From a virus, in IMG/VR virus record IMGVR_UViG_3300037231_000123, positions 1 to 39,414 of that record: a stretch of 39,414 nt of DNA; one strand, written 5' to 3'. The position numbers were made by a program, and so were the translations under genes. The notes under the pieces are model-generated. The model made no database searches and was not told the origin of the DNA. It worked only from the letters and a program-made list of their open reading frames with translations. Within the stretch, counting starts at the first letter, position 1. Each line of letters begins with the position of its first letter. Below, one piece after another: positions 1 to 39,414 of this stretch.

Positions 1-127
1 CAGCCACACCAACAATAGTCGGTACACCAGCAGTTAAAGCACTTCCAGTAGGCCGGAATTCAACTACATCTCCCGCAGCTGCAGGTATAAAGGTAACTAA
101 CAAAGTCACAATTATATTCGGAAGCGT
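1..127. repeat. Terminal direct repeat, left copy
   Basis: Bases 1-127 are identical to bases 39288-39414. The length of exactly 127 is a common assembler k-mer size, and the reading frame of the gene crossing it is continuous from 39414 back to 1. It is therefore best read as the overlap of a circular contig, giving a unit genome of 39,287 bp, and not as a biological terminal repeat. Confidence 0.95.
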
Positions 128-688
128 AGTAGTTGGAATAGCGGCAGCTAAACTAACAGCAGTAAATGTAGTTGCGTCACCGCCAGACAATACTGATATT
201 GGAGGTTGCAGCAAATATTCTAAAGCACCACCTAGATTCTGAGGCTTATGAGTTGCATATACGAAATGCGCAGCGCCATCAGTCTCAATGAATCCAATCA
301 AGCGATAAGAATCATACCCAAAAGGCAACAAGGGGAAAGCATTCCCAGTTTGAGACATCACAGTAGCAACTTGATTGTATCCGCGTGAATCACCGATAAC
401 ATAAACTGCATATTGAGTGGTCGCGCCCAACACCCCAGTATCTAGTCCGTTCACACCATTAACAGCGGAGTTTAAGAAAAGACCAGGAATATAACCATTA
501 AACAAAGTAGCCGGAAATACATTGCCCTGTAAATTAGGATAACCAATTGGCATATCGATGACATCTTGTGAATCCCGACACTGCCCAGGCGCAATACCCA
601 AAACAGTCGTGGAGGCAATAGATATATTCATTCCAGCGATATATAAATGAGCTAAGCCATATATAGGGTCGTTCTGAATAGCTGACAT
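1..688 (-). CDS. Virion protein (281 aa), N-terminal part; rest at 39130-39287
   Basis: The gene starts at ATG 688 (MSAIQNDPIYG), runs leftward off the window start and continues in frame from 39287 to a stop at 39130, giving 281 residues. It is a clear paralogue of the 283-residue product at 38260-39111. Shared blocks are CRD-(S/D)-x-D-(V/I)-x-D, G-x-LD-x-G-x-L, the near-identical YA-(V/I)-Y-(V/I)-I-x-DSRGY and (P/A)-GYD-x-(Y/K)-RLIGF. The C-terminal half is a Thr/Val/Ala-rich beta-type sequence with a shared F-x-P-x-AAGD motif. It lies in the late head operon between the HNH gene and its paralogue, so a capsid-surface or tail-attachment role is inferred. No named family was recognised. Confidence 0.85.
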   Translation of the reverse strand, partial: MSAIQNDPIYGLAHLYIAGMNISIASTTVLGIAPGQCRDSQDVIDMPIGYPNLQGNVFPATLFNGYIPGLFLNSAVNGVNGLDTGVLGATTQYAVYVIGDSRGYNQVATVMSQTGNAFPLLPFGYDSYRLIGFIETDGAAHFVYATHKPQNLGGALEYLLQPPISVLSGGDATTFTAVSLAAAIPTTTLPNIIVTLLVTFIPAAAGDVVEFRPTGSALTAGVPTIVGVA

Positions 689-11221: not shown

Positions 11222-11394
11222 ATATCACCAATAAATACCCGCGCGATTTGAGCATATGAGGGAGCATAGAGGCTTGGCGGGTGTATAACTTAAAAGTTAA
11301 CCCCATAAACTGTGGATAACTCTGTATATAACTATAAACATACTAAATATAACAAGCATCTTAACTTAAGATTAATAAAAACACAAATAGAGTG
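11222..11394. promoter_or_regulatory. Divergent control region between late and early operons
   Basis: No gene was found here. Leftward late transcription must start in or above this stretch, but no clear sigma70 -35/-10 pair was found on the minus strand, so a phage-specific activator is possible. A direct repeat, GAGCATATGAGG (11250-11261) and GAGCATAGAGG (11262-11272), lies about 30-50 bases above the first late gene and could bind a regulator. The right part (11320-11394) is very AT-rich and next to DnaA-box sequences. Confidence 0.5.
11280..11319. promoter_or_regulatory. DnaA boxes
   Basis: TGTGGATAA at 11311-11319 is a perfect consensus DnaA box (TTATCCACA on the minus strand). A second 8/9 match, GGTGTATAA, lies at 11280-11288 in the same orientation. 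They border an AT-rich stretch, so host DnaA could act here in replication opening or in control of early/late transcription. Confidence 0.5.
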
Positions 11395-11423
11395 TTGACA
11401 TGTTATGATATGTGAGTTATCAT
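11395..11423 (+). promoter_or_regulatory. Early sigma70 promoter with operator-like palindrome
   Basis: TTGACA (11395-11400), a 17-base spacer, and TATCAT (11418-11423) form a near-consensus promoter. A 7-bp inverted repeat TATGATA (11404-11410) / TATCATA (11418-11424) overlaps the spacer and -10 and could be a repressor site. The same -35, spacing and -10 recur at 12680-12708. Confidence 0.8.
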
Positions 11424-12485: not shown

Positions 12486-12683
12486 ATGTACAAAACCGGA
12501 CAACGTACACATTTTGCAACCACATTGAACCCAATCGTTTATAAGACTCTAGACGAAGCCAAATATGACGCCGAAAAACTGCCCGACTCCAAATGCCAAG
12601 TAATCATCAAAGAATTTGGGCGAATAGGCTTTCTTTATAGAATAAGAACAATTGAAGGATATATTTGGGTGCATAGGTATTGA
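12486..12683 (+). CDS. Small early protein (65 aa)
   Basis: 65 residues from ATG 12486 (MYKTGQRTHFATTLNPIVY), with AAGG about seven bases upstream. A longer reading from 12393 would run across the start of the leftward gene and is less likely. It looks like a small alpha/beta protein (YKTLDEAKYDAEKLPDSKCQVIIKEF). The next promoter begins inside its last codons. No family recognised. Confidence 0.6.
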   Translation: MYKTGQRTHFATTLNPIVYKTLDEAKYDAEKLPDSKCQVIIKEFGRIGFLYRIRTIEGYIWVHRY

Positions 12684-12708
12684 CAGCATAGGCTAAATGT
12701 ATTATCAT
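12680..12708 (+). promoter_or_regulatory. Second early sigma70 promoter
   Basis: TTGACA (12680-12685), a 17-base spacer, and TATCAT (12703-12708) repeat the -35, spacing and -10 of the promoter at 11395. The spacer differs and lacks the palindrome of the first promoter. Transcription would start near 12715, which rules out a TTG start at 12711 for the next gene. Confidence 0.75.
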
Positions 12709-12737: not shown

Positions 12738-12956
12738 ATGAACAAATTAACATTATATGAAATATGTGGTGAAGACCATTCCATCTTCTCGAATCTAGAA
12801 CAAGATAACGAAATAACCGTTGAAGTTTGGAATGAAACCCATGATGTTGTCTACAAAGAAAAAAGCAATCAGCATGCGTGGGATAGTTTAGTATGCTTCG
12901 CGAAGATGATTTTGGCTCAAGATAAGAAGATTCAGAAGGAGATAGAGAGTGAATAA
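12738..12956 (+). CDS. Small early protein (72 aa)
   Basis: 72 residues from ATG 12738 (MNKLTLYEICGEDHSIF), chosen because GGAG and AAGGA lie just upstream and the promoter excludes the earlier TTG. Acidic and probably alpha/beta. It is the first gene of the second early transcript, followed by GTG-started and ATGA-coupled genes. No family recognised. Confidence 0.65.
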   Translation: MNKLTLYEICGEDHSIFSNLEQDNEITVEVWNETHDVVYKEKSNQHAWDSLVCFAKMILAQDKKIQKEIESE

Positions 12957-13116
12957 CGATACTTTGGATTTAATAATTAATCTTGAAAAAGAAAAGATTA
13001 GATTGGCTATTAACCTTTGGAATGAATATTTTAAAAAAGTAGAAGAACCATCTGAGATAAATAATGATGATAACGAGCCTTTGTATTTTGGCTTTCGGAG
13101 CTTTGGTGATGATTAA
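12949..13116 (+). CDS. Small acidic protein, GTG start (55 aa)
   Basis: 55 residues from GTG 12949 (MNNDTLDLIINLEKEKI) with AAGGAG seven bases upstream, ending in an aromatic tail (EPLYFGFRSFGDD). It overlaps the previous gene by eight bases and the next by eight. No family recognised. Confidence 0.55.
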   Translation: MNNDTLDLIINLEKEKIRLAINLWNEYFKKVEEPSEINNDDNEPLYFGFRSFGDD

Positions 13117-13267
13117 CGACGAGAAACTAAAAACCCTACAAGAAATTGTAAGCCGGCAAGCCGAGGACTATGGGCTCTGGTTCTGTGCAAAATATACAAG
13201 CGAACAGTATCTGCAGAGGGCACTTAGGAAACTGCATAGTATGATTGAGGATTTAGAGAATGAATGA
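13109..13267 (+). CDS. Small helical phage protein (52 aa)
   Basis: 52 residues from ATG 13109, which has GGAG eight bases upstream and overlaps the previous stop. The segment LWFCAKYTSEQYLQRALRKLHSMIE has a pattern common in small phage proteins (LWF-A-T-SE-YLQ--LR-LH), predicted as two helices. The function of the group is unknown. Confidence 0.65.
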   Translation: MINDEKLKTLQEIVSRQAEDYGLWFCAKYTSEQYLQRALRKLHSMIEDLENE

Positions 13268-13485
13268 CTTCACGAAAGAAGAACTGATCGAATTGCTCGA
13301 TATATGTAAAGCTGCTTATGTTTATGGGGAAATAAACCCTCAAACACCTTCACGTGTGAAACAAAAAATTCAAACCATGATCAACAACTATTGCGAGCAT
13401 GGCGGAAAAATAGGCAAAGATTATCCAGCTGAAAAATGCATGCAATGTGGGGTTATGTGGGAATGAATGACTTCACGAAAGAAGA
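13258..13485 (+). repeat. 25-bp direct repeat at the starts of two tandem paralogues
   Basis: A 25-base stretch at 13258-13282 is identical to 13461-13485. Each copy spans the previous stop, the ATG and the codons for MNDFTKEE, so it marks a tandem gene duplication 203 bases apart whose later parts have diverged. Confidence 0.8.
13260..13466 (+). CDS. Zinc-ribbon-tailed protein, copy 1 (68 aa)
   Basis: 68 residues beginning MNDFTKEELIELLD. A C-terminal C-x-H ... C-x-x-C arrangement (NYCEHGG, then EKCMQCGVMWE) looks like a small zinc ribbon. It is a tandem paralogue of the next gene and shares 25 identical bases around the start codon. Helical N-terminus plus zinc tail suggests a nucleic-acid or protein adaptor. 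No named family. Confidence 0.65.
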   Translation: MNDFTKEELIELLDICKAAYVYGEINPQTPSRVKQKIQTMINNYCEHGGKIGKDYPAEKCMQCGVMWE

Positions 13486-13684
13486 GTTACAAATTATAGA
13501 GCTTGATATGAATCACAATATCCTTAAGGAAAAGATACTAAATGTAGCTTCTAGTTACATTGCTCTAAGAGACAAGGTTGAGTTAATGATCGACAACTAT
13601 TGCGCTCATGAAGCATGCGGAGAACAAGAAATTTTTGTGGACATTTGTAATAAATGTAACGGGGTAATGGTGAGAAATGATTGA
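13463..13684 (+). CDS. Zinc-ribbon-tailed protein, copy 2 (73 aa)
   Basis: 73 residues from ATG 13463 (MNDFTKEELQIIELD), overlapping the stop of copy 1. It keeps the MIDNYCAHEA block and a C-terminal DICNKCNGVMV, matching MINNYCEHGG and CMQCGVMW of copy 1. The middle is expanded. Same proposed fold as copy 1: helices and a zinc ribbon. No named family. Confidence 0.65.
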   Translation: MNDFTKEELQIIELDMNHNILKEKILNVASSYIALRDKVELMIDNYCAHEACGEQEIFVDICNKCNGVMVRND

Positions 13685-14213
13685 CTTTGAGAAATTAAAG
13701 ACAAAAATACACGAATGCTTGCAAGGATTAAATAAAAGTTGCGAGCACCCAATGTTTAGAAATAATGAAGATGTTCGCATGTCCTATAAAAACCAAGCGC
13801 ATGCTTTGGAGTGGGTAATTAATCAAATAAAAATTCTTGAGGAATCTGATGATTTCCATCGTGGAGCACACAATGCCATCAAGAGCACATATAAAATCGG
13901 TCAAGAAGTTTGGTATTTAGATGATGCGAATGAAATATCCTCTGAAAAAATTGCAGAAATTGATGCCAATTCTAATGAAAAATATTTATTAGAGGACGAA
14001 AATTGGTGGCACTATGAAGATACGTTGTTCATTTCAAAATCAGCCTTGATACAAGCACAAATTAATCACTGGCAAAGCTTAGCGATTAACGAAATATGCT
14101 CCACGAATAGTGAGGATAAATGCAATCATATTCCAAATCTAAATATGTCTAATCCAGATGAATACACCCAAAGAACATTTGAATGCAAACGATGCGGAGA
14201 ATTTTATAAATGA
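13677..14213 (+). CDS. Early protein with C-terminal zinc ribbon (178 aa)
   Basis: 178 residues. The N-terminus is related in style to the two small genes before it (IHECLQGLNKSCEHPMF, helical). The middle (IGQEVWYLDDANEISSEKIAEIDANSNEKYLLED) resembles a small beta-barrel of the SH3 or Tudor type. The C-terminus, KCNHIPN to FECKRCGEFYK, has C-x-H and CxxC pairs for zinc. The start overlaps the previous stop by eight bases. No named family. Confidence 0.65.
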   Translation: MIDFEKLKTKIHECLQGLNKSCEHPMFRNNEDVRMSYKNQAHALEWVINQIKILEESDDFHRGAHNAIKSTYKIGQEVWYLDDANEISSEKIAEIDANSNEKYLLEDENWWHYEDTLFISKSALIQAQINHWQSLAINEICSTNSEDKCNHIPNLNMSNPDEYTQRTFECKRCGEFYK

Positions 14214-14476
14214 CTGATTATGTATTTATAGATAATAATAATGGTCATTTTTGTGAGTATTATAATTTCAAAAGCAATGCTACAGCCGAGCAAATAAAAA
14301 TAGCTACCCAAGAAATGAAGGAAAAAAAACCGGAATATCAAAGATGTGGAAGTAAAATTTATGATTTGGCTGAAAAATTACTTGAATTAGGTTTTATTAT
14401 TAATCTTGAAGACAACCCAAGAAATCGACAATATATTGATCGGATTGCGATTCAATGTATATCAGGAAATTATTGA
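14210..14476 (+). CDS. Hypothetical early protein (88 aa)
   Basis: 88 residues beginning MTDYVFIDNNNGHFCEYYNF, alpha/beta, with ATGA overlap to the previous gene. No family or motif recognised. Confidence 0.6.
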   Translation: MTDYVFIDNNNGHFCEYYNFKSNATAEQIKIATQEMKEKKPEYQRCGSKIYDLAEKLLELGFIINLEDNPRNRQYIDRIAIQCISGNY

Positions 14477-14494
14477 CACCGGAGAGTTCTACAA

Positions 14495-14698
14495 ATGAAC
14501 ATCGATGAAATAGAACCAAAACTTTTAGCCCTTGAAGAAAAAATAGGCGCAATAGATAATTTAGTGAATGCATTACGCAATATCATGTTTCCGATTAAGG
14601 AGAAAAAATGCCAGCATGTGTGGCAAGTAAACCCTATGGATATTAATTTAACGCCATTTTGCAGAAAATGTGGTCACAAAGGATATAGTGATGACTAA
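14495..14698 (+). CDS. Helix plus zinc-ribbon protein (67 aa)
   Basis: 67 residues: an N-terminal amphipathic helix (IEPKLLALEEKIGAIDNLVNAL) and a C-terminal C-x-H ... CxxCG ribbon (KKCQHVWQVNPM, FCRKCGHKGYSDD). GGAG is present upstream of ATG 14495. It repeats the plan of the three zinc-tailed products in the same transcript. Confidence 0.65.
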   Translation: MNIDEIEPKLLALEEKIGAIDNLVNALRNIMFPIKEKKCQHVWQVNPMDINLTPFCRKCGHKGYSDD

Positions 14699-14711: not shown

Positions 14712-14792
14712 ATGAACAGTAAACTAAAATTATTTATAGTCGGCCTAATCTGGTTAATCATAGTATTTTGTGTAGACTATTATTTACATTAA
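14712..14792 (+). CDS. Single-helix membrane micropeptide (26 aa)
   Basis: 26 residues, MNSKLKLFIVGLIWLIIVFC then VDYYLH: one transmembrane helix with a positive N-terminus. ATG 14712 has AAGGA upstream, and the csrA-like gene follows after ten bases. The function is unknown. Confidence 0.55.
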   Translation: MNSKLKLFIVGLIWLIIVFCVDYYLH

Positions 14793-14802
14793 AGGATGAA
14801 CC

Positions 14803-15021
14803 ATGCTAGTAATCACAAGGAATGTCGGCGAAGCTATCATCATAGATAATTGCATCAAAATAATGTATCTTGGAAAAGGCCATTATGATGAATGCAAGAT
14901 TGGCATTTACGCCCCCAGTGAAATGATTATCCATCGTGAAGAGATACAAAAGCGGATTAATCGGATTAATGCCGCTGCACAGAAAGAGATAACTATACTG
15001 AACATATTACAAAGCGTATAG
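14803..15021 (+). CDS. csrA: CsrA/RsmA-family RNA-binding protein
   Basis: 72 residues. The N-terminus MLVITRNVGEAIIIDN matches CsrA (ML-LTR-VGE---IGD), and APSEMIIHREEIQKRI matches APKEV-VHREEIYQRI. The two RNA-contact regions are kept: L2 to R6 in strand one and R45 in the HRE motif (R44 in host CsrA). The central loop is a few residues longer (GKGHYDECKIGIYAP). CsrA dimers bind GGA in RNA hairpin loops and usually block Shine-Dalgarno sites. It is the last gene of the early transcript, and its own SD region reads AAAGGATGAACC before ATG 14803, overlapping a CsrA-type target. Probably acts on host or phage mRNA soon after infection; this role is inferred. Confidence 0.88.
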   Translation: MLVITRNVGEAIIIDNCIKIMYLGKGHYDECKIGIYAPSEMIIHREEIQKRINRINAAAQKEITILNILQSV

Positions 15022-15199
15022 TTGCCAGGGAAGGCCCCTATTGGGCTCGTAGTCAAGTTTTAAATGCTAGCGCTACATAGCTATGCATAATAGCGTTAAC
15101 GCAACACAGCGCCCTTTAGCCTCCACTTTTGGACGTTATCTTGCGAAGGCAGTCACTAGGCACCAATTTTGGTCAGCGACTTCGACTGGTGCCTAGTTC
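15022..15199. other. Structured non-coding gap after csrA, with strong hairpin
   Basis: The gap between the csrA stop and the convergent gene end at 15200 has no ORF with a start site. It holds a GCCC/GGGC hairpin near 15035-15050, the 10-bp palindrome GCGTTAACGC (15093-15102), and a perfect 11-bp inverted repeat ACTAGGCACCA (15155-15165) / TGGTGCCTAGT (15187-15197) with a 21-base loop. Neither strand has a U-run after the large hairpin. It may be a bidirectional stop or part of a small RNA. No tRNA fold was found. Confidence 0.5.
15155..15197. terminator. 11-bp perfect hairpin between convergent operons
   Basis: Arms at 15155-15165 and 15187-15197 pair perfectly. The position between the convergent csrA and 15200-15433 genes suits a bidirectional terminator or 3' end stabiliser, though no T-run follows. 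Confidence 0.5.
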
Positions 15200-15433
15200 C
15201 TAATTCCCACCCAATAAACCTCTAAGCCAAATATTAGCACATCGACGCCCAACGTTCTGCGCCTGCACTTCGTTCTCAAATCCCTGCATCTCAGCTACCC
15301 AAACGCCAATATAACGCCTCAAAACGTCTGTGCGTTCGTTTAATGGCACTTTAAGCACGTATTTTCGCAAGTATGTTATATCCTCTTGCAATAATAAGCA
15401 TCCTGATTGAGTTGCATAGTCAGTGAATTTCAT
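15200..15433 (-). CDS. Hypothetical protein, last gene of the cro operon (77 aa)
   Basis: 77 residues from ATG 15433 (MKFTDYATQSGCLLLQEDI), overlapping the stop of the gene before it by 14 bases. It is helical and basic, with NERTDVLRRYIGVWVAEMQ and NVGRRCANIWLRGLL. Position after the initiator suggests a replication accessory role, but no family was recognised. A start at 15448 is possible, but the AAGGA there abuts it with no spacing. Confidence 0.6.
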   Translation of the reverse strand: MKFTDYATQSGCLLLQEDITYLRKYVLKVPLNERTDVLRRYIGVWVAEMQGFENEVQAQNVGRRCANIWLRGLLGGN

Positions 15434-19851: not shown

Positions 19852-20192
19852 ATGAAATAACAATTAATGGTGAAATTTATATCAAAAAAGAATCTTCTGA
19901 TTCCATGGTGTATGTGATCGTGAGAACACATTCAGCTGGCTGTTTTGCAGGATATTTAGATTCGTATGGCGAAAATGGATCGGAAATAAATCTAGTCAAT
20001 GCTAGACGTCTTTGGTACTGGGACGGTGCATCATCATTAAGCCAATTAGCAATGGAAGGTGTTACAAAACCAGAGAATTGTAAATTCCCATGCGAAGTAG
20101 ATAAGATTAAATTAATGGGTGTTATTGAAGTAATAAGCGCTACAGAAAAAGCTAGGAAATGCCTGGCTAAGGTTCCTGTATGGCAGCAATAA
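19848..20192 (+). CDS. DUF6948-type phage protein (114 aa)
   Basis: 114 residues. VYVIVRTHSAGCFAGYLDSYGENGSEINLVNARRLWYWDGASSLSQLAMEG in outline is a beta-sheet core ending in the NARRLWYW-GA-SL-QLA motif of a common phage family, often next to glycine-rich genes. The C-terminus has VDKIKLMGVIEVISAT. The family function is unknown. It overlaps the Gly-rich gene by 13 bases. Confidence 0.7.
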   Translation: MNEITINGEIYIKKESSDSMVYVIVRTHSAGCFAGYLDSYGENGSEINLVNARRLWYWDGASSLSQLAMEGVTKPENCKFPCEVDKIKLMGVIEVISATEKARKCLAKVPVWQQ

Positions 20193-20485
20193 AAAAAATT
20201 CACCATTACGGCCACGGCCACTGCCACGGCGATGGTTACGGCGATGGTTACGGTGACGGTGACGGTTCTGGTTCCGGTTCTGGTTCCGGTGACGGTTCTG
20301 GTTCCGGTTCTGGTTCCGGTGATGGTGACGGCGACGGTAATGGAAACGGTTACGTTTACGGTTCCGGTTACGGTTACGGTGACGTTTACGGTTCCGGTGC
20401 CGGTTATGGTGACGGTAACGGTTATGGTGACGGTTCCGGTTTCGGTTCCGGTGACGGTTATGGTGAGGATGACGCCTATGGTTAA
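20180..20485 (+). CDS. Glycine-rich repeat protein (101 aa)
   Basis: 101 residues. After a short basic start (MAAIKKIHHYGHGHCHG) the whole protein is a two-residue repeat G-D, G-S, G-Y, G-N. It is coded by hexanucleotide units of the form GGTNNC. ATG 20180 has AAGG eight bases upstream and overlaps the end of the DUF6948-type gene. Phages often carry such a gene here, but the role is unknown. The sequence should be disordered and prone to change in repeat number. Confidence 0.65.
   Translation: MAAIKKIHHYGHGHCHGDGYGDGYGDGDGSGSGSGSGDGSGSGSGSGDGDGDGNGNGYVYGSGYGYGDVYGSGAGYGDGNGYGDGSGFGSGDGYGEDDAYG
20201..20480 (+). repeat. Hexanucleotide minisatellite (GGTNNC units)
   Basis: Tandem six-base units GGTTAC, GGTTCC, GGTGAC, GGTTCT and GGTTAT run for about 280 bases and encode Gly-X dipeptides. 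Blocks of GGTTCTGGTTCC are repeated exactly. The base composition is much richer in G and C than in neighbours. Confidence 0.8.
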
Positions 20486-31166: not shown

Positions 31167-33044
31167 ATGATTACACGCGGGGCGAATAATAAGGAATTAC
31201 CCATAAATGTAGTTGGAAGCTCTGTATTTGGTCGTTATGATAAAATATCCACTGAACGTACTATGAATATGTTCATAAGTGATACGGCATTAGTTCCTTA
31301 TGCGGGATATCAGATTGAAATATCAGCTACTGAATTCTCTTCAACTGGTGTTGGTAAAGAAGGCCGGGCGATATTTTCAAGCATTAAGTTTAATTGTTTA
31401 GTTATTGTTGTTGATGCTAATGTTTATCTAGTCACTTGCACGTTTAATCAAGAACTTCAGATGGTTCAATTTGTAGATGTAATCTTTATAGGTGCTTTAG
31501 CTACAGTGACAGGAATTGTTTATATAACGGAAAATAATAAGCCTCAAATTTTATTTTCAGATAATATTAATTTATATATTTACGATCCAACCGTCACTCC
31601 TGCATTTTCACAAGTGGCTGGATTAAATTTCACCCCAGGTTATATTACGTTTCATGATACTTATTTCATAGCCGCAGCATCTCAGGATACTACTTACACT
31701 CCTCCTGCGAACAATACTTGGAGATTATCAACAAGCAATGAAGGTTATTTAAACTCAACAACATTCACAAGTGTTGCTAATGTAATTACATATGCAACGT
31801 CAATAGGTTTAACGGCAGGAAGTCCAATCACATTTCTGAATACTACAATCCTAATTCCAGGCACTATTTATTATGCAGGCAATTTTTCTGGTAATACATT
31901 TCAGGTTTTTGCAACTTATGCTAATGCCATAAATAATGTAAGCCCATTAGCAACTGATGCATCTGGAATTGTCGGTTCGAATGCGTGGCCGTCTAGTGCT
32001 GCATATGTTGGTTTATTGTCAACAAAACCAGATAATGTTCAAGCAGTAGTTCGATTTCCTTCCAAAGGAAATATGATATTTGTTATGGGCTCTATCGTAA
32101 CAGAAGCATGGTTTGATACAGGCGCCCAATTATTCCCCTACCAACGTAATAATCAGTTTAATATCGATTATGGTTGTCTCTCTCCAGCATCAGTAGCCTA
32201 CATGGATGAGATTGTTGTTTGGTTGGCGCAAAATGAGAAATCAGGTCCTATTATCATGTATAGTGATGGTGGGATGCCTAAGAAGATTACCACTGATGGT
32301 ATTGATTACGCTTTTTCTCAACTACAGACCCCTTCAGATTCCCAAGGTTTTCTTTATCGTCAAGATGGGCATTTATTTTACCATATAAACTTTTATTCAG
32401 ATAATATTTCATATTTTTATGATTTCAATACTGAGAAGTTTTTTAATGCATCTGATCAAGATAATAATTATTTCATCGCATCAGAAATAGCATTTTACGG
32501 TAATCAATATTATTTTGTAACCAGAAATAATGGCAATCTTTTTGCCTTTGATACCAGCTTTACTTCTTATCAGGACGTTGAAAGTTATCCCTCAACCACA
32601 GTGATAAACTATATCATCCCGCGCTTTAGGATTTGTAAAAATATACGATTACCATCACAAGATTATGTCATTTTAAATGACATTGGATTTACGATTGAAT
32701 CTGGTGAGACTGATGCATTTATTCAGCCTACAGTCCCATCCATAGGTTTATTATTATTACAGAATGGATTTCCCCTATTATTACAAGATGGAATTACGGA
32801 CTTACAACTTAATGTAAATTCAAATGTCACTTATACTACGCCAACCGTCTATCTATCACTTTCCTATGATGGTGGCGCGACTTTTGCTAATGCAGTTCCC
32901 TACGCCTTACCTACCATTGGATATCGCAGGAATCGTCTTATGTGGTGGCAGTGTGGCATGAGTAATGACACTGTTCCTAAGTTTAATATGGTCAGCTATG
33001 GGCGGGTAGTCTGCTTCGATGGCATTGCCAATGTGAGGATATAA
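31167..33044 (+). CDS. Tail hub / DNA-stabilisation protein, P22 gp10-like
   Basis: 625 residues with many beta strands. The first 60 residues (NVVGSSVFGRYDKISTERTMNMFISD) resemble the start of P22 gp10-type proteins (DY----P-NM), and the middle has VVRFPSKGNMIFVMGSIVTEAWFDTG, DYGCLSPASVAYMDEIVVWLAQN and a propeller-like repeat, as in gp10 (I---SSTIEYFS, GI-GTYCKTPFADSYAFIS). gp10 closes the portal channel. It overlaps the next gene by one base. Confidence 0.72.
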   Translation: MITRGANNKELPINVVGSSVFGRYDKISTERTMNMFISDTALVPYAGYQIEISATEFSSTGVGKEGRAIFSSIKFNCLVIVVDANVYLVTCTFNQELQMVQFVDVIFIGALATVTGIVYITENNKPQILFSDNINLYIYDPTVTPAFSQVAGLNFTPGYITFHDTYFIAAASQDTTYTPPANNTWRLSTSNEGYLNSTTFTSVANVITYATSIGLTAGSPITFLNTTILIPGTIYYAGNFSGNTFQVFATYANAINNVSPLATDASGIVGSNAWPSSAAYVGLLSTKPDNVQAVVRFPSKGNMIFVMGSIVTEAWFDTGAQLFPYQRNNQFNIDYGCLSPASVAYMDEIVVWLAQNEKSGPIIMYSDGGMPKKITTDGIDYAFSQLQTPSDSQGFLYRQDGHLFYHINFYSDNISYFYDFNTEKFFNASDQDNNYFIASEIAFYGNQYYFVTRNNGNLFAFDTSFTSYQDVESYPSTTVINYIIPRFRICKNIRLPSQDYVILNDIGFTIESGETDAFIQPTVPSIGLLLLQNGFPLLLQDGITDLQLNVNSNVTYTTPTVYLSLSYDGGATFANAVPYALPTIGYRRNRLMWWQCGMSNDTVPKFNMVSYGRVVCFDGIANVRI

Positions 33045-33412
33045 TGCCTGAGCAACGAATATTGCAATCAATCTTTCCGGACGTTCCCCGGGAATCGCCA
33101 GAGGTTGATAAGGATGGTAATTTCACCCAACTTTGGTCGTTGTTCTTTGGGGCATTGGCTCAGGCATTGCAAGATAATTTTAAGAATGAGGGCATTGTCT
33201 TTCCACCTTTGAATGCAACTAATGTGGCAACTATTCAGGCTATTTATACGCCTTTGATCGGCGGTCCATTACCGCAAAATATCCCAGATATTTCAGGCCA
33301 AACGATATTTAATAGTACCATTCGATTACCACAACAGTTTATTATAAGTTATGACGCATCTACGCCACCAATCATTACTTCAGCTCGATGGTGGACGTTT
33401 ACACTTACATAA
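33044..33412 (+). CDS. Tail-associated protein (122 aa)
   Basis: 122 residues. FTQLWSLFFGALAQALQDNFKNEGI is a helical segment, then a Pro/Ile-rich part (IVFPPLNATNVATIQAIYTPLIGGPLP) and a beta end. The place between gp10-like and gp7-like genes matches small tail or ejection genes of P22-like phages. No family recognised. Confidence 0.6.
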   Translation: MPEQRILQSIFPDVPRESPEVDKDGNFTQLWSLFFGALAQALQDNFKNEGIVFPPLNATNVATIQAIYTPLIGGPLPQNIPDISGQTIFNSTIRLPQQFIISYDASTPPIITSARWWTFTLT

Positions 33413-33421
33413 GGAAATATC

Positions 33422-34036
33422 ATGACACCATGGGGAATGGCAAGCGGTGCTGCACAAGTTGGCTCAGGTCTATATGGTTTGTTTGGCGACAATAAAAATC
33501 CCGCAGATGAGGCCCAAGGCTATTTAGGCCAAATTTCCGGCAAAACTAATCAATATAATCAGCCTTATTTTAATGCAGGCACAAATCAATTAGGACAAGT
33601 AAATAAACAATATACTGACTTACAGAATGACCCTGGTGGAAAATATAATGAGATAGGATCGCATTATAAAGAATCTCCAGGATTCAAATTTGCTATGCAA
33701 CAGGCATTGCAAGGTGCCGGTCATGGCGCTGCTGCCGGTGGAATGGCAGGAAGTCCACAGCATGAACAACAAAATATGCAACTTGCTAATGATATCGCCT
33801 CTCAGGATTATAATAAATACATGCAGGGTGCGACTGGATTATATGGTGAAGGTCTTCATGGCGGCCAAACAGTCGCAAATCAAGGCCAACAAGCAGGACA
33901 ATCTCAGCAAGATATGATTGCGCAACAACTCGCTGCACAGGGTGATGTTGCCTATAAAGGTGCTGCAAATCAAAATGAGCAACGTGGCAATGCATTTTCT
34001 AATATAGCCAGCGGTATTGGTGATTTTTTCTATTAA
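33422..34036 (+). CDS. Ejection protein, P22 gp7-like
   Basis: 204 residues, Gly/Gln/Ala/Asn-rich. PWGMASGAAQVGSGLYGLFGDNKNPADEAQGYL in outline with YNQPYFNAGTNQLGQV is the layout of gp7-type ejection proteins (small glycine-rich start, then a repeat of short helices with Y--G motifs). Such proteins enter the host with the DNA. Next genes carry two more ejection candidates. Confidence 0.65.
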   Translation: MTPWGMASGAAQVGSGLYGLFGDNKNPADEAQGYLGQISGKTNQYNQPYFNAGTNQLGQVNKQYTDLQNDPGGKYNEIGSHYKESPGFKFAMQQALQGAGHGAAAGGMAGSPQHEQQNMQLANDIASQDYNKYMQGATGLYGEGLHGGQTVANQGQQAGQSQQDMIAQQLAAQGDVAYKGAANQNEQRGNAFSNIASGIGDFFY

Positions 34037-34043
34037 GGAGTAA

Positions 34044-35159
34044 ATGATGGGATTTACCTATAATCCAGTTCCCTTGTTGAAACCTGAACAACAAAATCCT
34101 ATGGGAAATATGATTCAGAATGCTATGAAGATGCATATGCAGAATGTACAGGCACAATATGCTAGGCCACAGCAGGAGGCGGATATCTTTGCTAAGAAGA
34201 TGACGCCTATAAGTGCATTAGCTGCTAGTCCTTATTTTAATGCAATGAATGATAAACAGAGAGAACAAATAACAGCGATGATGTCTAAATTGTTTGAGGA
34301 ACAAAATGGAGGCAATGGAGAATCTGGCGCACAAGGTGGTGGCGGACCCATGGATTGGCTTAAACATTTCCTTCATATTGGCGGCCAAAATGGCAGCAGC
34401 AATGGCCAGCAAGAAGATACAAATAAGCCTTACGATCCCAATGCAAAACCTGAGAATGCATTGCAGAAAAGTATCGAAGAAGACAATAGACGTAAGGCCC
34501 AACAAGCAACTGCTGAATCTTATAAAAATAAACTGACAGAGGAACAGATTGCACAAGGTGGTATTTCACAACAAAACGGTCAGACAATATTGAATCCAGC
34601 ATCAAGTCGTGAAGAATTCGAAAAAGCATCAGTGGGTCTTCCTCGGCTTGATAAAATAACCGATGGATTAATTGCTGACTTGGAAAAGATTGGTAAAGGA
34701 AATAAGATATCAGACTATATATCTTCTGCTGGATTAGCTGCCGAAGGAGCCCATTTTCCTTTATTGCAAGCCGCGGTGCCTCAGGCAGTGCGTCAAAAAC
34801 AACAAGATTTAGCTTCTGTATTGATTAAAAACTTTGACTATTCACCTGAACAGGCTGATGCGGCTACGCAAAAGGGTATAAGAGAAACCAGCGGTGAATT
34901 TGCCACCCGTTTAAAAACTTTGGCAAAAGATTTGTCTAATCGAACTTCTCAATTGAAAAATGTTGTTAAGAATAAAATAAGTTTAGAAAAGAATGCGCCA
35001 CAAGAAGAGCATGATATGAACTTTTCTAAACAATTATCTCAGGATATTAAAACTAAAATAGGCAAAGATATTCCAGATACTGTGATTTTTAATTATTTAA
35101 GCCAACATCCTGGTAAAGTCCATATACCATCTTTATTAAAAGCGGCAGGTATGAGATGA
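34044..35159 (+). CDS. Ejection protein, P22 gp20-like candidate
   Basis: 371 residues, helical and Gln-rich, with a low-complexity linker (GGNGESGAQGGGGPMDWL). Two adjacent ATGs (34044 and 34047) follow AAGGAG, and the second has better spacing. The C-terminal half is long helices (LPRLDKITDGLIADLEKIG, YSPEQADAATQKGIRETSG). Assigned by order and composition. Confidence 0.55.
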   Translation: MMGFTYNPVPLLKPEQQNPMGNMIQNAMKMHMQNVQAQYARPQQEADIFAKKMTPISALAASPYFNAMNDKQREQITAMMSKLFEEQNGGNGESGAQGGGGPMDWLKHFLHIGGQNGSSNGQQEDTNKPYDPNAKPENALQKSIEEDNRRKAQQATAESYKNKLTEEQIAQGGISQQNGQTILNPASSREEFEKASVGLPRLDKITDGLIADLEKIGKGNKISDYISSAGLAAEGAHFPLLQAAVPQAVRQKQQDLASVLIKNFDYSPEQADAATQKGIRETSGEFATRLKTLAKDLSNRTSQLKNVVKNKISLEKNAPQEEHDMNFSKQLSQDIKTKIGKDIPDTVIFNYLSQHPGKVHIPSLLKAAGMR

Positions 35160-36961
35160 CAACTTCTAAGCGTGAGATTGACTGGGGTGATACTGCACCT
35201 GCGCCTATTAAAGCAGGCAAACCTGCTGTTGCTGAGCGTGAGGTTGATTGGGGCGATCAAGAGCCTCAACAACAATCTAATGCCGAGACCCATCGAGCCG
35301 ATATTCAATCTCAACATCCAATACTATATAAAATAGCTGAGATGGTGGCGAAACATCCTGACTTACAAAAATTTGTGAATAAAGCTGGTGAGGATGTTAA
35401 TGAGCATATTAATAAGCCCATTGAACGCTCGGGACTTCCTATTGTTGCAGAACATGCTTTGACATTGCCTAGAACTATTGCTGAGCTAATGACAGGCCGT
35501 GAGCATCATGCACCAACTGAAAATATTAATCCTGATGTTGCGCAAGCAGAAAAAAGAATTGGACAAACATTAAGTGCCGCAACGGGTGGACCAATGGTTA
35601 AGAATATTCCTGGAATGTTTGGACCATCTACCGCTAAAAAATTACAAGAAGCATTAATGGAATCAGGAGAAAATGAACAAACTCTTAGAGAACAGCAGGC
35701 TAAAGCATCACATGAATTTGGATCTAATAAACCTGAGCGCTTAGATTTAATGACACAAGATAAAACTAAAGCTCTACAAGAAGCCATGCAACGCATGCAG
35801 GAACAATTTGGTGGTAGAACTGGCCCCCATCAGCCAAGTGAGATGATATCTGAAAATGCGAATCAAGCATTGGCTAATGCTCGCCAAGGCGTCCAGCAAT
35901 ATGGTGGTCAAGGACAGAATTTCCCAAAACGTATTTCAGATGAATTCATGACGCAATTGCGTGGTGAAGAAAATCCAGAAACAGGACTTAGACAAAATGG
36001 TTTTGAACAAGCGATTGGTAATCGTTATACAGTATTAAGTCATAAAATGCGCACCGATCCAAATCCTGTAGAAATAACAGAAACACCAAATTTAAGTGAA
36101 TTAGCAATTAAAGTTAAAAAGCAACTTCCAGAATTAGCGGATGAATATCAGCAACAAATCACAAAAAAATGGGCCGATGAATTAACAACTAATAAAAAAG
36201 TTAATGGGGCAGACTTTTTAGAAAGTTACCGTGGATTCAGACAAGAATTACGAAAATTGAATGATAAATATTGGGGAGCATCTATTGCAGAACAACGTGC
36301 GCTAAGACCTGAACAGAAACAATTAAAAGATACTATTCGCATCATGAGAGATACGATGGATAAGCAATTAGGAGGGCATTATCTTGCCGAATTACAGAAT
36401 ATCGATAAACAATATGCAACATATGTCGCGCCTCTAGCTAAAAACTCTATCTATAGACTATTAAAAAAAGGCGAAACACCCGAAAATCCATTACAAAAAA
36501 TCAGTTTGAATCAAAAAGGAAACAAAACTTTAAGACTTATTTTAGATGAAAATCCGGAATTACAGCGTTTATTATTTGGCGAACAATTTGCCGCTAAACC
36601 TGAAAAATTATTACAACCCAATGAAGTGGTTGATGAATTAACGACCAAAAACCCACAAATTCACGCCATTAGACAAAAACTATGGGAGGCAGAACAAAAC
36701 TTAGAACCTAAATTACAACAAGCTGCCGAACAAAAGGAATTTGAAGCCTTAAGTCATAATATTCCCAAGCTTAAAGAAGAAATAAAGTTAGCAGAACAAT
36801 TGTCTGAGGATATCAGGAAATCTTTAAAAGCCAAGAATCTATCCAAAGAAGAAGTTAATAAATTAGAGGCTAAATTAACAAAAATATCAAATAGACGAAA
36901 AGGATTAGCTAAGTTATTAGGTTTATCTAGTTATCTAAAGATATTAAAACCGTGGGGTTGA
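35156..36961 (+). CDS. Large ejection / internal virion protein (601 aa), P22 gp16-like place
   Basis: 601 residues. The first 40 hold two copies of a short motif, REIDWGD and REVDWGDQEP, common at the start of large phage ejection proteins. The rest is almost all helix and coiled coil, with EFEALSHNIPKLKEEIKLAEQL near the end and a basic C-terminus. No peptidase or lysozyme motif was seen. It is the last of three likely ejection proteins. Confidence 0.6.
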   Translation: MTTSKREIDWGDTAPAPIKAGKPAVAEREVDWGDQEPQQQSNAETHRADIQSQHPILYKIAEMVAKHPDLQKFVNKAGEDVNEHINKPIERSGLPIVAEHALTLPRTIAELMTGREHHAPTENINPDVAQAEKRIGQTLSAATGGPMVKNIPGMFGPSTAKKLQEALMESGENEQTLREQQAKASHEFGSNKPERLDLMTQDKTKALQEAMQRMQEQFGGRTGPHQPSEMISENANQALANARQGVQQYGGQGQNFPKRISDEFMTQLRGEENPETGLRQNGFEQAIGNRYTVLSHKMRTDPNPVEITETPNLSELAIKVKKQLPELADEYQQQITKKWADELTTNKKVNGADFLESYRGFRQELRKLNDKYWGASIAEQRALRPEQKQLKDTIRIMRDTMDKQLGGHYLAELQNIDKQYATYVAPLAKNSIYRLLKKGETPENPLQKISLNQKGNKTLRLILDENPELQRLLFGEQFAAKPEKLLQPNEVVDELTTKNPQIHAIRQKLWEAEQNLEPKLQQAAEQKEFEALSHNIPKLKEEIKLAEQLSEDIRKSLKAKNLSKEEVNKLEAKLTKISNRRKGLAKLLGLSSYLKILKPWG

Positions 36962-37020
36962 TTGCTTTTTGTTTATGGTGCTCATATAATACCAGTGTGT
37001 TTTATTATTGAGTAATTGTT

Positions 37021-37200
37021 ATGGGTTTCTATATTTTTTTGTTTTTAGGTTTGATTTATTTGGGTTATTTAAAGCTCCTAGATAGATTTGATTCTAGCAT
37101 GGAATTGTTAGGTTTTTTAGGAAGATTGACATTGGGATGCGCGATGATAGGTATTCTAACTTATGCTATCGGGTCTGATATTATTAGAGATATTTTATGA
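37021..37200 (+). CDS. Putative holin, two-helix membrane protein (59 aa)
   Basis: 59 residues: helix one FYIFLFLGLIYLGYL and helix two RLTLGCAMIGILTYAIGS, separated by a charged loop (KLLDRFDSSMELL). It sits after the ejection genes and shares ATGA with the next membrane gene, the usual place for a lysis cassette. No endolysin was recognised next to it. Function inferred from topology and place. Confidence 0.6.
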   Translation: MGFYIFLFLGLIYLGYLKLLDRFDSSMELLGFLGRLTLGCAMIGILTYAIGSDIIRDIL

Positions 37201-37364
37201 GCAAACAATCATTCCCTAGTGACTTCTACATAAACCATGAAGTCAGAATCCAATTATTAGAAAAAACAACAAAAGATATCCATCACTTGTTGCGATGGAT
37301 ATTGGGTGCAGTCGTTATAGGCGTCGTCATTCCTGTTACATTGCATTCTTTTGGTTTGATTTAG
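37197..37364 (+). CDS. XhlA-like membrane protein (55 aa)
   Basis: 55 residues. A helical cytoplasmic part (NHEVRIQLLEKTTKDIHHLL) precedes a single C-terminal membrane helix (RWILGAVVIGVVIPVTL). This matches the haemolysin XhlA pattern (RV--LE-----I--L--W-IG-VI), which acts with a holin in host lysis. ATGA coupling to the 59-aa gene supports a joint function. Confidence 0.65.
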   Translation: MSKQSFPSDFYINHEVRIQLLEKTTKDIHHLLRWILGAVVIGVVIPVTLHSFGLI

Positions 37365-38259: not shown

Positions 38260-39111
38260 TTAAACGCTTATGCTAAAACCAGCTACGTATATAGCAACTG
38301 TATCAGTTCCAGATACTTTGTATTGAATCGAAGGCAAAGGTAATGGGAAAGGAGGGAAAAAAGCACGTTGAACTATTACAGAACTAGTTGTGGTGACTTT
38401 AACACCCGAAACTTGACCTGTGATTACAATCTGTCCGCCAGGCGCAGTACTGCCTCCCGTAGCCATTGTCAATGTATCTCCAGCAGCTCCGGGAGTAAAT
38501 ACCGTATATATTGATGCCGGACTATTATATATCTCTGGTACAAAGTTAAAAAGATTAACATTAGCATATGTATTTGATGATCCAGCAGTAACCGTAGTTT
38601 CTTGCGGAACATCATATGTAAATACTAAATCATTTCCTAGCCCATAATAATATCCTGTGAGCCAAAATGTATTAATATCAGTAGCCCAGAATCCGATAAG
38701 TCTCTTACAATCATATCCGGCAGGCATTAATGGCCCAGGTGGTACAGAAAATATATTTAAAGCTAATGTGGCAACTGCAGAAATAGGCAAGTAACCTCTT
38801 GAATCAGAAATTATATAAATTGCATACATTGTACTGGCAAGTATATTTCCTTGATCAAGTCCACCTGGACCGTTTATTGTATTATCTATACGGACAGGTG
38901 CACTTGTTATAAACCCACTTATATTAGGATTTGTATCACCAAATCTGATGTCTGTAATATCCTCATCATCACGACAAACTCCTGATAAAATACTTAATTT
39001 CGTCTCAGGATTAAGAGTGCCATTTATAGAAGTACTATTTTGTATCGTCAATCCATATTTATAAAGAAAAGGGATATCTACAATTGGATAATTTTCAATT
39101 ATATTCGACAT
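38260..39111 (-). CDS. Virion protein (283 aa), paralogue of the 281-aa product
   Basis: 283 residues, Thr/Val/Ile/Pro-rich and mostly beta. It shares motif blocks along its length with the 281-aa gene that spans the window ends (GVCRDDEDITD, LDQGNILASTMYAIYIISDSRGY, PAGYDCKRLIGFW, FTPGAAGDTL). The two tandem genes probably arose by duplication. Structural role inferred from the operon. Confidence 0.75.
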   Translation of the reverse strand: MSNIIENYPIVDIPFLYKYGLTIQNSTSINGTLNPETKLSILSGVCRDDEDITDIRFGDTNPNISGFITSAPVRIDNTINGPGGLDQGNILASTMYAIYIISDSRGYLPISAVATLALNIFSVPPGPLMPAGYDCKRLIGFWATDINTFWLTGYYYGLGNDLVFTYDVPQETTVTAGSSNTYANVNLFNFVPEIYNSPASIYTVFTPGAAGDTLTMATGGSTAPGGQIVITGQVSGVKVTTTSSVIVQRAFFPPFPLPLPSIQYKVSGTDTVAIYVAGFSISV

Positions 39112-39129: not shown

Positions 39130-39414
39130 TTACACTAAAGCAGGGTAAGCAGTATTAGATACGCCTGTCCATGTTACTACTGATACAGATACCGCATCAC
39201 TTGCAGATGTTACCAAGTAATCGATAGAAGGAACGGCAGTACCAACGCCTGCTATCATCACAAGATATTGAGTCTGAGCCACACCATCAGCCACACCAAC
39301 AATAGTCGGTACACCAGCAGTTAAAGCACTTCCAGTAGGCCGGAATTCAACTACATCTCCCGCAGCTGCAGGTATAAAGGTAACTAACAAAGTCACAATT
39401 ATATTCGGAAGCGT
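39130..39414 (-). CDS. Virion protein (281 aa), C-terminal part; starts at 688
   Basis: This is the end of the gene that starts at ATG 688 and is cut by the window. An ATG at 39396 within this part is internal and not the real start. The visible end has VTFIPAAAGDVVEF and VTWTGVSNTAYPALV. The last 127 bases duplicate bases 1-127. Confidence 0.85.
   Translation of the reverse strand, partial: TLPNIIVTLLVTFIPAAAGDVVEFRPTGSALTAGVPTIVGVADGVAQTQYLVMIAGVGTAVPSIDYLVTSASDAVSVSVVTWTGVSNTAYPALV
39288..39414. repeat. Terminal direct repeat, right copy
   Basis: Exact copy of bases 1-127; see the left copy. Removing one copy gives a circular sequence of 39,287 bp with no interrupted gene. Confidence 0.95.

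Follow-up and report, generated by a model that had tools for sequence, protein, structure and literature searches.

CsrA homologues and the window

What might a CsrA-like protein do for a phage that carries its gene, and how long has the gene been there? The question is raised by an open reading frame of 72 codons plus stop (ATG start, TAG stop) at 14803-15021 (+) of a viral record of 39,414 bases, which was analysed over its full length and is referred to here as the window. The gene and its surroundings comprise the following features:

11395-11423 (+): promoter-like site, with hexamers (TTGACA-17-TATCAT) identical to those at 12680, heading another rightward gene group
12680..12708 (+): promoter-like TTGACA-17-TATCAT, 11/12 match, a consensus match only, ahead of the rightward operon whose last gene is csrA
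12738..14698 (+): small early-type genes at 12738, 12949, 13109, 13260, 13460, 13677, 14210 and 14495, from tblastn synteny
14713..14793 (+): putative 26-aa membrane peptide, encoded immediately before csrA within one operon, from reading the sequence
14803..15021 (+): csrA-like gene, 72 aa, from PF02599, phrog_9500 and CsrA/RsmE entries in the PDB
15155..15197 (no strand): 11-bp perfect inverted repeat, ACTAGGCACCA...TGGTGCCTAGT, in the convergent gap past csrA, from folding

Family assignment and predicted structure

In the Pfam profile search that the preliminary description had proposed, the 72-residue product matched PF02599 with 55.4 bits against a cut-off of 27 (E 5.9e-15), the alignment spanning profile positions 1-52 (52/53). 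It also matched phrog_9500, 'CsrA-like regulator', in PHROGs (E 1.3e-15), and all nine matches of a PDB sequence search at E<=1e-3 are CsrA/RsmE-family entries. At the level of sequence the match to CsrA is far beyond chance, which confirms the homologue and the coordinates proposed for it. The product scores under both NCBIfam equivalog cut-offs (49.3 bits vs 70.1 for TIGR00202, 50.5 bits vs 73 for NF002469). These profiles therefore do not warrant treating it as functionally equivalent to chromosomal CsrA, and by them the protein is a member of the CsrA family outside the chromosomal CsrA equivalog. The GC content of the gene is 37%, against 39% for the genome.

The window protein resembles E. 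coli CsrA and Pseudomonas RsmA and RsmE in length, in its full-length profile match, in the R6 and HREE-I RNA-contact residues and in the predicted strand-strand-strand-helix order, but has one more residue in the central loop and a longer C-terminal helix. Identity to E. coli CsrA is about 40%, with I in place of L4 and N in place of R7. In the alignment of the two proteins R6 and the His-Arg-Glu-Glu motif are retained, and the E. coli RNA-contact positions L4, R6, R44 and I47 correspond to I4 (a conservative change), R6, R45 and I48; R6, H44 and R45 are invariant across 31 diverse viral CsrAs. The retention of R6 and of the HRE arginine had been read correctly from the sequence, and the slightly longer central loop described with them amounts to one net extra residue relative to E. 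coli CsrA.

A single-chain AF2 model built from a 31-row alignment reached a moderate pLDDT of 81, with one of five models good. Its top ten PDB matches in Foldseek are all CsrA/RsmA-family chains (probability 1.0, E about 1e-3, TM about 0.5), its best matches among viral structures are phage 'carbon storage regulator' models, and the protein as modelled has the CsrA fold. Proteins of the CsrA family form dimers, and the TM near 0.5 is probably due to the model being a single chain, without the swapped dimer.

Genome and csrA neighbourhood

The record has identical 127-bp ends (1-127 and 39288-39414), which fall within a single gene, and it is therefore probably complete or circularly permuted. 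It encodes large and small terminase, a P22-type portal, scaffold, head closure and ejection protein, as well as Sak4, SSB, a helicase and an O-like replication protein, whereas no integrase was detected among the window proteins scanned against PHROGs. The genome is podophage-like, of the P22-portal type, and the terminase, portal, scaffold, Sak4 and SSB genes bear out the proposal that csrA is phage-encoded. Cultured Vibrio and Shewanella phages have capsid proteins only about 23% identical to that of the window, but in the best 80 of 181 uncultured viral relatives the identity is 81-94%. The genome lacks a close relative in culture.

The csrA gene is the final rightward gene and is followed by a convergent leftward block. 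From the promoter-like site at 12680 up to csrA the + strand showed no terminator-like site, so that the description of csrA as the end of an operon holds as a matter of gene order. We infer that this operon is early from its position and from the gene order in relatives. Promoter-like sites are not enriched in the window overall (23 seen vs 27.8 expected). In the gap past csrA, the fold of 15016-15200 has a z of -2.14, and the inverted repeat is a candidate bidirectional terminator. A CsrB-like decoy RNA was also considered for this gap and rejected, there being only two GGA on the + strand and no Rfam match.

Among the small early-type genes (+, within 13260-14698), the products of 13260, 13677 and 14495 have zinc-ribbon-like Cys/His C-termini in common. 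In addition, 13260 and 13460 match one and the same place in relatives.

csrA in related phages

A csrA gene above the cut-off was found in 7 of 50 related records, plus one fragment; five carriers are among the 24 long relatives (at least 34.7 kb), and the remaining two are shorter. In all seven, tblastn synteny puts csrA in the identical place and with the same orientation: the terminase-side block lies on one side and, where the contig extends that far, the Cro/Sak4/SSB or replication module on the other. Several of the small genes in 12738..14698 have homologues upstream of csrA in relatives: several precede it in G014, G019, G020 and G023 and one in G015 and G025, and in G035 tblastn detected none before csrA. 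Every syntenic copy retains R6 and the His-Arg pair.

In a tree of 42 CsrA sequences, weak in general because of the few columns, the window CsrA forms a clade with the syntenic copies of G014, G015 and G025 (support 96/90), which stands apart from the E. coli, Acinetobacter, plasmid and other phage CsrAs included. The pN/pS ratio is 0.26-0.56, below 1 in every csrA pair, with synonymous sites saturated in most. The shared place, the supported clade, the pN/pS below 1 and the invariant residues together show an old, maintained phage gene and not a recent host capture. In this phage group csrA is long-resident and selected, yet optional.

Phage-borne csrA has been listed in 30 of 2517 phages (Sobrero and Valverde, PMC7366521). 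Our own scan with an alignment query found CsrA relatives in at least 343 viral contigs; the window protein alone, used as query against viral contigs, retrieved no relatives, so the alignment query was needed. Matches labelled 'Acinetobacter phage MD-2021a' were discarded as bacterial chromosome contigs, judged by the neighbouring alaS and hisZ. The published phage CsrA/RsmA proteins (Pseudomonas F116, Burkholderia DC1/Bcep22/JC1, Vibrio VvAW1 and others; PMC7366521, PMC8450108, PMC9144972) are encoded, as here, in tailed-phage genomes, but csrA adjoins an exonuclease gene in VvAW1 and lies between portal and capsid in JC1, whereas in the window it closes a rightward small-gene operon in a different phage group. 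Plasmids and integrative elements likewise carry csrA relatives (Legionella CsrT, plasmid Rsm), but the ones we looked at have conjugation genes as neighbours and are separated in the tree from the window clade. The preliminary description mentioned paralogues on some mobile elements, where they are indeed known, but they had also already been catalogued on phages (PMC7366521, PMC8450108). Phage-borne CsrA is thus already known by sequence, and the window gene adds a member; in the literature we found no functional study of a phage-encoded CsrA. What is new is a syntenic, vertically kept phage csrA lineage, together with, in one relative, a hairpin that is a candidate for self-control.

Candidate CsrA sites in the csrA leader

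We scored 66 window gene leaders against the published CsrA consensus, RUACARGGAUGU (maximum 20). Two sites lie at the start of csrA:

14788..14799 (+): ATTAAAGGATGA, csrA ribosome-binding site resembling the CsrA consensus (17/20), candidate autoregulatory site
14819..14821 (+): second GGA, in ACAAGGAAUGU context, csrA codons 6-7, 25 nt from the first, from direct reading

With 17/20, the csrA leader ranks joint first of the 66, tied with the leader of the scaffold gene (ACCGAAGGATGT), and its consensus-like site overlaps the ribosome-binding site. The second GGA is in part a consequence of the conserved protein sequence TRNVGE, and neither folding nor a stem search predicted a hairpin presenting the leader's own GGA. 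In G025 the csrA leader contains a textbook hairpin at -31, GCACA(GGA)TGTGC (GCACA-GGA-UGUGC in RNA), whose ACARGGATGT occurs nowhere else on the two strands of five csrA-bearing relatives, and the G015 leader has a 9-bp stem with GGA in the loop at -76. GGA hairpins with a stem>=5 occur at 0.038 per 100 nt, so that about 0.4 would be expected in the examined leaders and two were seen, a suggestive excess. Since the window leader ranks joint first and G025 has the textbook hairpin, autoregulation of csrA is plausible for this phage lineage.

An orphan abiF-like RNA

The phage also carries an abiF RNA (RF03085) at 11237-11281 (-), with 38.4 bits against a cut-off of 37 and letters nearly all consensus. 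It is an orphan, as no Abi_2 gene is present in the phage genome. Of other viral contigs, 26 contain an exact match to the abiF consensus pattern; many are fragments, and one of the 26 has an Abi_2 gene; within the phage group the position of the RNA varies among relatives. The cyanophage S-CREM1 has been reported with an abiF motif (PMC9964418). In C. difficile an abiF-motif RNA neutralises AbiF in trans (PMC12373285), and orphan viral abiF RNAs could for this reason be stand-alone anti-AbiF RNAs; by this analogy the present one is possibly such an antitoxin RNA, and it may be more novel than csrA.

Proposed role of the phage CsrA

We favour, with moderate confidence, the view that the csrA product is a homodimer that lowers translation of host mRNAs during the first part of infection and limits its own synthesis, as a member of an old, selected lineage. 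As in its family, the protein would act as a homodimer, which would bind GGA motifs at ribosome-binding sites and so reduce protein synthesis from host mRNAs. Plausible targets include transcripts for metabolism, motility or defence, cas mRNAs being an example. This repression would fall in the first part of infection, and CsrA would probably hold down its own production through binding to the csrA leader. A phage group with a resident, syntenic, selected csrA and a candidate hairpin in a relative offers a small, concrete and testable model of phage post-transcriptional control.

CsrA could instead chiefly time phage genes, by binding its own and a few other phage leaders and shifting translation from early to late. 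The joint top scores of the csrA and scaffold leaders and the textbook site in G025 are consistent with this, but the phage leaders contain less GGA beyond the Shine-Dalgarno zone than do the within-gene controls (0.79 vs 1.15 per leader), and this lack of enrichment of CsrA sites in other phage leaders points towards host targets. Moreover, as most relatives are without csrA (five of the 24 long records have it), the gene cannot be essential to the phage programme. We regard a chief role in gene timing as possible, though unlikely. The timing of phage genes had been suggested from the sequence, along with possible repression of host mRNAs and a freeing of host metabolism; as a general role timing is unsupported by the leader scan, whereas self-control is supported by the csrA leader score and the G025 hairpin. 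Host targets might include defence functions in particular: Serratia RsmA acts as a repressor of type I and III cas mRNAs, and RsmA/CsrA homologues of phages have been proposed as anti-CRISPR (Campa et al., PMC8450108). By analogy, the window CsrA may be a regulatory anti-CRISPR or anti-defence factor that represses translation of host defence mRNAs, and since the phage carries the abiF antitoxin-like RNA, other RNA-based counter-defence is conceivable. We hold this to be doubtful, and quite unlikely in its extended form, in which a self-limiting, lineage-specific CsrA, distinct from the host protein, silences specific host defence mRNAs in the first minutes, alongside the abiF RNA acting against another defence.

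Dimer formation, as a family trait, would also allow the phage protein to disturb the host Csr circuit, through heterodimers with host CsrA or by titration of CsrB-type small RNAs. The presence of phage csrA correlates with csrA-bearing hosts (PMC8450108), but the window CsrA is only about 40% identical to the E. coli protein, and we consider such interference decidedly improbable. The patchy distribution of csrA among relatives and its divergent C-terminus might suggest a passive passenger or decaying remnant, presently functionless; given the conserved place in seven relatives, the pN/pS <1 in all pairs and the invariant RNA-contact residues, this is disfavoured and seems very remote. Equally remote is a virion protein injected with the DNA and acting at once, as could be imagined from Burkholderia phage JC1, in which csrA lies beside the capsid gene and purified virions yielded a single CsrA peptide (PMC9144972), since the window gene sits among small early-type genes of one operon, at a distance from those for structural proteins.

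Host searches and other genome features

Scanning bacterial genomes for the terminase yielded no host, and an MCP scan found only MAG contigs, of conflicting phyla. Two of these, L234 and L235, are possibly misbinned, as their size is about that of one phage genome. A capsid relative with 50% identity occurs in L237 (CP070751.1), a 5.2-Mb chromosome labelled as a Thermoplasmata MAG, for which both the label and the host look doubtful.

The tail/ejection module at 31167-37364 is inverted with respect to its neighbours relative to G015; G020 is arranged as the window, and the inversion is therefore probably natural. Near the capsid gene, 2-688 (-) and 38260-39111 (-) are apparent paralogues, matching the same places in relatives. 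In the replication region, 20180-20485 (+) encodes a short Gly/Asp/Ser/Tyr repeat protein (GYGDGDGSG...), with imperfect 6-bp repeats.
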